Positions 7,427 to 12,220 of a stretch of 33,470 bases of DNA are shown one piece after another (position 1 is the stretch's first letter; each line of letters begins with the position of its first letter). Below the pieces are notes generated by a model. The model was not told where the DNA came from and did no database searches. It was given only the letters and a program-made list of their open reading frames with translations. The DNA is from Lysobacteraceae bacterium. GTDB taxonomy: Bacteria > Pseudomonadota > Gammaproteobacteria > Xanthomonadales > Rhodanobacteraceae. A program made the translations under genes and the position numbers. The stretch spans positions 1-33,470 of the forward strand of contig JAGWXP010000006.1 of the NCBI GenBank assembly GCA_018969845.1, read 5' to 3'.

Positions 7427-7455
7427 TTGAAAGCGCCCATACGGCGTGGGAGAAT
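7427..7455 (+). promoter_or_regulatory. Sigma70-like promoter for the thrS leader
   Basis: TTGAAA (7427-7432), a 17-bp spacer and GAGAAT (7450-7455) form a good -35/-10 pair. The predicted start point, 7461-7464, falls on or just before the ATGATG of the thrS leader peptide. The leader mRNA would therefore have almost no 5' untranslated region. Confidence 0.55.
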
Positions 7456-7463
7456 CGCCTCAA

Positions 7464-7535
7464 ATGATGGCGAGGTGGCGCGCGGGTAACCGCCGTCGAG
7501 CGCGCGACATGGAAACTAGAACAGCCAACACGTAA
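7464..7535 (+). CDS. Putative thrS leader peptide (Thr-rich C-terminus)
   Basis: This is a 23-codon ORF starting ATG-ATG. An 8-codon version would start at ATG 7509. It ends M-E-T-R-T-A-N-T-stop. The three Thr codons are ACT, ACA and ACG, not ACC, the codon expected to dominate in GC-rich DNA, and a rare-type AGA Arg codon lies between the first two. The stop is followed 4 nt later by the left arm of a possible antiterminator and then by an intrinsic terminator, 161 bp before thrS. That is the architecture of a ribosome-mediated attenuator. There is no strong Shine-Dalgarno, but the promoter position suits leaderless initiation at 7464. The reading is inference from layout; the ORF is too short for homology. 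Confidence 0.6.
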   Translation: MMARWRAGNRRRARDMETRTANT

Positions 7536-7539
7536 CGGT

Positions 7540-7581
7540 CAGCGCGTTCCGCTCGACGAAAGGGCGCGTTGCGCCCTTTTT
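7540..7581 (+). terminator. Attenuator: competing antiterminator and intrinsic terminator upstream of thrS
   Basis: The terminator is aaagggcgc-gtt-gcgcccttt (7559-7579, reckoning the A/U-extended stem) in a five-T run. A competing stem pairs CAGCGCGUUC (7540-7549) with GGGCGCGUUG (7562-7571), 10 pairs including three G-U, which would consume the left terminator arm. A third pairing joins cgtcgagcg inside the leader ORF (7494-7502) with cgctcgacg (7550-7558) in the antiterminator loop. A ribosome at the UAA (7533) would cover the left antiterminator arm and favour termination. A ribosome stalled at the Thr codons would leave it free and cover the upstream segment. Confidence 0.6.
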
Positions 7582-7605: not shown

Positions 7606-7726
7606 CGTCATTCGGGCAGGGATTGCCGGAATCCAGACTGCATGGATGCCAACGAGACGCTCGAGCAACCCGAGCTCTTGCCGTCCAGGGCTTCTGGGCT
7701 CCGGCATTGCTTGCCGGAGCGACGAG
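7606..7726. repeat. REP-like repeat, family A copy 1 (CGTCATTCSGGC type)
   Basis: It begins cgtcattcgggcagggattg and continues gccggaatccag; a second hairpin, ctccggcattgcttgccggag, lies at its right end. The same cgtcattccggc...gccggaat core occurs at 28915-28945 and 33138-33224. It fills the space between the thrS attenuator and the thrS ribosome-binding site. Confidence 0.7.
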
Positions 7727-7742
7727 CAACGAGGAATTCCCA

Positions 7743-9641
7743 ATGCTCAGCATCACCCTCCCCGACGGCAGCCAACGCCAATTCGATAACCCGGTTACGG
7801 TCGGCGACGTCGCCGCCGCCATCGGCGCAGGATTGGCCAAGGCCGCGCTCGCCGGCAAGGTCGACGGCAAGCTGGTCGATACCAGCTTCAAGATTGACCA
7901 CGACGCCAGCATTTCGATCATTACCGAAAAATCCCCCGAGGCGCTGGACATTCTGCGCCACTCCACCGCGCACTTGCTCGCGCAGGCCACGCAGCGCCTA
8001 TTCCCGGATACACAGGTGACGATCGGCCCGGTCGTCGAAAACGGCTTTTACTACGACTTCGCGCGCAAGACGCCGTTCACGCCGGAAGACCTCGACAAGA
8101 TCGAGGCCGAAATGAAGAAAATTGTCGCCGAGTCGTTACCAGTGCAGCGTCGCGTGATGCCCAAGGACGAAGCGATCAAATTTTTCAAGGACAAGGGCGA
8201 GATTTACAAGGCGCAGATCATCGACGAGATCATTCCGCCCGGCGAGGAAATCTCGCTCTACGGGCAGGGCGAGTGGGTGGATCTGTGCCGCGGCCCCCAC
8301 GTGCCGAATACTAGCAAGCTGCGCGCATTCAAGCTGATGAAGGTGGCCGGTGCGTATTGGCGCGGCGATGCCAAGAACGAGATGCTCCAGCGCGTCTACG
8401 GCACCGCCTGGCTCAACGACAAGGATCTGAAAGCGTATTTGACCCAAATCGAAGAGGCCGAAAAACGCGACCATCGCAAGCTGGCCAGGCAGCTCGACTT
8501 GTTCCACTTGCAGGAAGAAGCGCCGGGCCTGATCTTCTGGCATCCGAAGGGTTGGTCGATCTGGCAGGTGGTGGAGCAGTACATGCGCCGCGTCTATCGC
8601 GAAACCGGCTATGGCGAGGTGCGCGCGCCGCAGGTGTTGGACGTATCGCTGTGGAAAAAATCCGGCCACTGGGACAACTACAAGGACAACATGTTCTTCA
8701 CCGAGTCGGAGAGGCGCACCTACGCGCTCAAACCGATGAACTGTCCGGGCCACGTGCAGATCTTCAACCACGGCCTGCACAGTTACCGCGACTTGCCGAT
8801 CCGTTACGGCGAATTCGGCGGCTGCCACCGCAACGAACCGTCCGGCGCGCTGCACGGCATCCTGCGCGTGCGCGGCTTCACCCAGGACGACGGTCATATT
8901 TTCTGCACCGAGGATCAGATCGAATCCGAAGTGACCGCCTTCCACGCGCAGGCAATGCAGGTCTATGCGGATTTCGGCTTTTCCGACGTGCAGCTCAAGA
9001 TCGCGCTGCGTCCGCAGCCGCGCCTGGGCGACGACGCCACCTGGGACAAGGCCGAGAACGCCCTGCGTTCGGCGCTGCGTGCAGCCGGCGTGCAGTGGCA
9101 GGAGCTGCCGGGCGAGGGCGCATTCTACGGCCCGAAGATCGAGTATCACCTGAAGGATGCGATCGGCCGCACCTGGCAACTCGGCACCATGCAGGTGGAT
9201 TTCATGATGCCGGAGCGCCTGGGTGCCGAATATGTGGACGAACATTCGCAGCGCCGCCATCCGGTGATGCTGCATAGGGCCATCGTGGGTTCCATGGAGC
9301 GCTTCATCGGGATATTGATCGAACATCATGCCGGCAATTTCCCGGCTTGGCTGGCGCCGGTGCAGGCGGTGGTGATGAACATCACGGATGCGCAAGCCGA
9401 TTACGTTGCGCAGGTCGTTGCCGATCTGCAAAAACAGGGTTTGCGCGTCGAGGCGGACACGCGCAACGAGAAGATCGGCTACAAGATCCGTGAACACACG
9501 CTGCAGAAGGTGCCGTATCTGCTGGTGATTGGCGAGCGCGAGAAGGAGCAGGGACTCATCGCCGTGCGCACGCGCGCGGGCGAGGACCTGGGGCAGATGC
9601 CGCTGGCCAAATTCCTGGAGCGTCTGTACGCGGAGAAATAA
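7743..9641 (+). CDS. thrS: Threonyl-tRNA synthetase
   Basis: This class II synthetase of 632 aa (E. coli 642) charges tRNA-Thr in the cytoplasm. Domains in order are an N-terminal TGS domain (about 1-60), the editing domain with its HSTAH motif at residues 73-77, the catalytic core, and an anticodon-binding domain (about 530-632). The core carries the zinc-site MNCPGHV, the HRNEPSG loop, and motif 3 around [21 protein letters not shown] 7743 follows an aggaa Shine-Dalgarno and begins with the expected TGS sequence. The ORF-track start at 7623 would translate a REP element. It heads the thrS-infC-rpmI-rplT-pheST-ihfA cluster and appears to be controlled by the upstream Thr-codon attenuator. 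Confidence 0.97.

Positions 9642-11126: not shown

Positions 11127-12220
<1,094 letters not shown>

Follow-up and report, generated by a model that had tools for sequence, protein, structure and literature searches.

Gene order and features at the thrS locus

The window, that is, the whole 33,470-nt stretch that was analysed, carries thrS on the forward strand at 7743..9638 (P0002, 632 aa; stop codon excluded), and the encoded protein is 54-97% identical to the ThrRS of relatives. On the 3' side of thrS follow infC, rplT, pheS and pheT, named from their translations. Upstream, a sigma70-type promoter is predicted at 7427..7455 (+), with TTGAAA as the -35 box (7427), a spacing of 17 nt and GAGAAT as the -10 box (7450-7455), from which transcription would be expected to start at ~7462. 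The same TTGAA...GAGAATC promoter arrangement is present in five relatives (L003, L004, L006, L007 and L008). Between this promoter and thrS lie a conserved 5' element, a short ORF with threonine codons and an intrinsic terminator.

A REP-like palindromic repeat occupies 7606-7724, between the terminator and thrS. It has 59 matches in the window's own genome, and a similar sequence is found at the same position in L006 and L007. A GC-rich hairpin lies at 11140-11190, between rplT and pheS. Inspection by eye revealed no Phe-rich leader 5' of pheS in the window.

An eight-codon ORF with early threonine codons precedes thrS

The leader ORF, METRTANT*, spans eight codons at 7509..7535 (+) and contains the Thr codons ACT (7515), ACA (7521) and ACG (7530). 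An earlier note on this DNA had proposed a 23-codon leader in the frame 7464-7535, which a letter-by-letter check reads as MMARWRAGNRRRARDMETRTANT*. We find that the conserved ORF comprises its last eight codons, beginning at the internal ATG at 7509, while its first 15 codons correspond to the conserved 5' element. We rejected the longer frame as the functional leader: an in-frame ATG within 75 nt upstream occurs in just 6/86 relatives that share the 5' element, and, with transcription predicted to begin at ~7462, the RNA ahead of the ATG at 7464 would be too short to hold a ribosome-binding site. As to further copies of the leader in the window's own genome, a slightly relaxed form of the 5'-element pattern matches once, at 7474-7511.

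The description of the leader codons as uncommon applies to ACT, ACA and AGA. Across the window's genes, ACT and ACA make up 4/133 (3%) and 6/133 (4.5%) of Thr codons, respectively, and AGA supplies 0/223 Arg codons. It does not apply to ACG, which is common (43% of Thr codons). In the order sample, ACT represents 107/261 leader Thr codons (41%) and fills codon 3 in 80/95 leaders (84%), compared with 24/548 Thr codons (4.4%) in the bodies of the relatives' thrS genes. Codon 4 keeps Thr with differing third bases (ACC 49, ACG 21, ACA 4, ACT 3), which indicates selection on the amino acid.

The leader and terminator recur across Xanthomonadales

The comparison covers the DNA upstream of 125 thrS genes, drawn from the genus, family and order of the window and representing 12 families (f1-f12). 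A Thr ORF is present in about 118/125 regions, a count for which the choice of ORF was guided partly by Thr content and in which related sequences are non-independent samples. ORF and terminator occur together in 113/125, among which L112 is doubtful. The typical relative has an ATG-initiated ORF with early Thr codons, usually eight codons long, whose stop mostly lies 21-34 nt before the terminator; the latter is a GC hairpin carrying a T tract and sits shortly before thrS. In L033, L045, L051, L096 and L124 the Thr ORF is present and the hairpin was missed by the strict terminator scan; the terminator of L051 was accepted under a laxer scan. The recurrence of the Thr-rich ORF and of both stems across the order is the outcome of the comparison with relatives that the earlier note had proposed as a check.

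No recognisable Thr leader was found in L004, L046, L047, L116, L117, L122 and L126. L004 is the closest relative (ThrRS 97% identical), and its leader reads MEYRHP*, with zero Thr codons, possibly through loss or an assembly fault. It retains the promoter and the 5' element. L126 is a second, divergent thrS (54% identity) of genome G021 and lacks the leader. Class B leaders, which are typical of families f3 and f4, are also seen in a few f1 genomes (L056, L057 and L123). This suggests that the thrS region was transferred or replaced there.

We also searched the genomes of 84,980 species for a pattern made from the 5' element only, GGTGGCNNGCGN{4,14}GNCGAGNGTGYGACATG, which covers class A leaders only. 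The pattern contains no Thr codons, so the ORFs were not picked by their threonines. At least 119 stretches matched. Among the matches listed, all named records are Xanthomonadales or MAGs labelled only Proteobacteria, and thrS starts 93-296 nt after the leader ATG in 116/116 that had enough DNA downstream to be scored. Among these same listed matches, Thr is codon 3 in 116/116 and codon 4 in 105/116, and the leader is eight codons long in 102/116. None of 300 genomes from the order contains the pattern more than once.

Such a leader is absent from 60 thrS upstream regions of other gammaproteobacterial families, with the exception of two genomes from one family, f118 (L141 510-640; L154 about 330-220, minus strand). 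Here, the leaders before thrS are MTPRTTSEMYFSC and MTPRTQEITLPAF, a downstream GTTCGCG complements CGCGAAC in the leader, and a terminator is also present. This may be an independent Thr attenuator.

A hairpin with covariation separates the SD-like sequence from the leader AUG

The 5' element begins with the SD-like sequence GAGGTGG at 7472..7478 (+). Its consensus in relatives is [A/G]AGGUGGC, and class A relatives share GGTGGC without variation (alignment A1, 80 sequences). It is followed by a hairpin, GGCG-c-GCGG-GUAA-CCGC-CGUC, at 7477..7497 (+), with loops that are mostly GNRA tetraloops or short in relatives. Across its eight pairs, 95.2% of cells are paired and double changes occur in 4/8 pairs. 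The covariation score is 0.233, against 0.141 +/- 0.006 in shuffles, and 0/500 shuffles were as high for either percent paired or covariation score. The strip before the ATG, at 7498..7508 (+), is near-invariant in A1 (consensus GAGNGUGYGAC; GAGCGCGCGAC in the window). This covarying hairpin between the SD-like AGGUGGC and the leader AUG is new in this analysis. The 5' element looks like a split ribosome-binding site, comparable to that of E. coli thrS (PMC3858243), minus the tRNA-like loop.

Other families differ in this part of the leader. Class B members (f3 and f4) have another small hairpin, GUUC-GAAA-GAAC, which covaries to GCCC/GGGC and GUCC/GGAC, and many of them carry a tRNA gene just 5' of thrS. 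Family f12 has no hairpin, and GAGGTGGCAC or GAGGUGGCAC stands immediately 5' of its leader ATG. An alternative mini-hairpin, GUCG-AGNGUG-CGAC, whose loop resembles an NGU anticodon, was rejected: more than half of the relatives have GCCG, which gives a C-A mismatch. The larger hairpin accounts for the C/U variation (columns 7/28; GC in 48, GU in 32).

Pairing between the spacer and the terminator is favored over shuffled sequences

An intrinsic terminator, AAAGGGCGC-GUU-GCGCCCUUU followed by T5, is recognised by its sequence at 7559..7581 (+), and terminators of like type are present in 113/125 relatives. The antiterminator 5' arm, CAGCGCGUUC (7540..7549, +), begins 5 nt after the leader stop. 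It can form 10 bp with GGGCGCGUUG (7562-7571; RNAduplex -13.8 kcal/mol), which overlaps the left arm of the terminator; a letter-by-letter check bore out the earlier note on both the pairing and the overlap. A further 9-bp pairing had been proposed between the leader region and the antiterminator loop. The complementarity of CGTCGAGCG (7494-7502) to CGCTCGACG (7550-7558) is perfect, but it is not conserved (at least 8 bp in 6/86 relatives, against ~2% in shuffles), and we dropped it.

Antiterminator pairing is favored by the statistics over relatives. The window's own pairing can form but is not individually significant, ranking 0.14 among shuffles. Its predicted terminator probability at equilibrium hardly shifts, from 0.93 to 0.95, between a ribosome on the first Thr codon and one on the stop. 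The energies of the two hairpins are close (antiterminator -13.0, terminator -13.8), and this near-equality makes a kinetic switch possible in the window.

Across the order, the distance from the leader stop to the beginning of the antiterminator arm has a median of 5 nt (quartiles 3-7). In this geometry, a ribosome at the stop would cover the arm, while a ribosome at codons 3-5 would not. Comparing the antiterminator region with shuffles by minimum free energy alone is uninformative (mean z -0.53), which the dominance of the GC-rich terminator arm probably explains; we used pairing-specific tests instead. With relatedness among the sequences left in these tests, the spacer between stop and terminator pairs with the terminator left arm and loop at a mean of -15.4 kcal/mol, versus -12.7 for shuffled spacers, and the mean rank of the pairing with the left arm is 0.22 among shuffles.

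Mean predicted terminator probability is 0.48 when the ribosome is placed at the first Thr codon and 0.75 when it is placed at the stop, and the size of the rise depends on the assumed footprint (0.48 to 0.55 for 9 nt; 0.46 to 0.85 for 15 nt). This shift of 0.27 compares with 0.07 for shuffled spacers and 0.15 for swapped spacers. Values for the stalled state fall toward the low end of the shuffle distribution (KS p = 3e-16, with relatedness left in). The predicted switch is near-complete in L026, L066 and L088, from 0.00-0.02 to 0.79-0.97. A 1:2 pause or protector hairpin, typical of trp and his attenuators and treated here as non-essential, is not conserved in the relatives (mean rank 0.41 for pairing of the leader codons with the spacer). 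Pairing between the 5' element and the spacer is weak (mean rank 0.37).

A predicted threonine attenuator and its alternatives

We propose that the region is a ribosome-mediated transcription attenuator of thrS that senses the supply of Thr-tRNA(Thr), a reading to which we assign a probability of roughly 0.8. Order-wide conservation, codon bias and geometry are observed, and alternative pairing is seen in statistics over relatives. The region has a conserved short ORF rich in cognate codons, predicted to be translated, with an intrinsic terminator between it and the structural gene. Statistically over 113 relatives, it also has an antiterminator that excludes the terminator and whose 5' arm would be covered by a ribosome at the stop and left free by one at the regulatory codons. 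From these features we infer transcription, leader translation, stalling and a regulatory response. RNA polymerase would start near 7462 and a ribosome would begin METRTANT. With ample Thr-tRNA(Thr), the ribosome would reach the stop and cover 7540-7549, the terminator at 7559-7581 would form, and thrS would not be reached. With Thr-tRNA(Thr) scarce, through low threonine or low ThrRS, the ribosome would stall at the early Thr codons, and the free arm would pair with the left arm of the terminator, allowing transcription into thrS. The core proposal of the earlier note, control of thrS by a Thr leader peptide together with a terminator and an antiterminator, draws support from order-wide recurrence, with the mechanism itself a prediction.

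Autorepression in the E. coli style, in which ThrRS would bind the SD/AUG hairpin and act on translation of the leader ORF, is quite improbable. It would account for a covarying hairpin that has near-invariant flanks and separates a start codon from an SD-like sequence, which recalls the bipartite ribosome site of E. coli thrS with its ThrRS-binding hairpins (PMC3858243). However, the GNRA or short loops show no anticodon-like sequence, and the tRNA-Thr anticodon-like loop near the thrS start that marks an E. coli-type operator was not found. The element precedes the leader ORF rather than thrS, f12 does without the hairpin, and class B has a different one. Moreover, blocking leader translation would favor the antiterminator and so produce positive feedback, and the Thr codons would be unaccounted for.

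A constitutive terminator with partial read-through, behind a small ORF that is translated and does not sense threonine, is similarly improbable. Intergenic terminators are common, and the weakness of the window's own antiterminator fits such an arrangement, but neither the presence of Thr at codon 3 in every motif-selected leader listed (116/116), with its rare ACT codons, nor the complementarity between spacer and terminator would be expected from it. An ordinary 5' UTR with a Thr-rich ORF and hairpins arising by chance can practically be dismissed: DNA of 64% GC readily yields short ORFs and GC hairpins, and the window region by itself folds no better than shuffles (z = -1.21), but order-wide conservation, including that of the ORF in relatives, speaks against chance.

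The attenuator may also have two inputs, with the SD/AUG hairpin itself regulated by ThrRS, by a ribosomal component or by folding. This extension is conceivable and rather doubtful. If it were true, leader initiation and stalling at Thr codons would together set read-through into thrS.

Relation to known leaders and significance

E. coli pheST is controlled by an attenuator with the leader peptide pheM. The two systems share a leader rich in the cognate amino acid and a terminator before an aminoacyl-tRNA synthetase gene, whereas pheM is longer, senses Phe rather than Thr, and belongs to another gene and lineage. We know of no conserved hairpin between SD and AUG in pheST/pheM. E. coli thrL, upstream of thrABC (Rfam RF00506, Thr_leader), likewise combines Thr codons in a leader peptide with a terminator and antiterminator, but it controls biosynthesis, also senses Ile, and is longer. 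No match to Thr_leader or any other Rfam family above the gathering score was found for the region, and in seven relatives the only matches were tRNA genes.

Attenuation of gamma-proteobacterial pheST has been mentioned, and that of trpS and leuS has been proposed in Streptomyces (PMC1262725). In the E. coli thrS operator, ThrRS-binding hairpins accompany a bipartite ribosome site (PMC3858243). Control in the 5' region of thrS and a hairpin within a bipartite ribosome site are common to both, but the E. coli hairpins are tRNA-like and act on thrS translation, whereas transcription termination and a leader ORF would be involved here.

The earlier note was not aware of a description of this form of thrS control. 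The idea itself has a precedent, since RNA-seq of Streptomyces lividans TK24 led to the proposal of a Thr-containing leader peptide, thrL, ahead of thrS (PMC8079986). That leader differs in having 18 codons with two Thr, a leaderless start and, according to its authors, no U-tract terminator (PMC8079986), and it has no visible sequence relation to the Xanthomonadales leader. For Xanthomonas and Xanthomonadales, we found no publication on thrS leader peptides in the open-access literature.

In the order to which Xanthomonas, Stenotrophomonas and Lysobacter belong, an essential tRNA synthetase appears to be under leader-peptide control. In E. coli, the textbook case for thrS, control is by protein feedback on translation. 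The attenuator proposed here would be very compact, with just eight codons and a near-fixed geometry. The uniform position of Thr, the codon choice and the spacing make models of stalling position and codon choice directly testable. The thrS leader, which no Rfam family covers, merits annotation.
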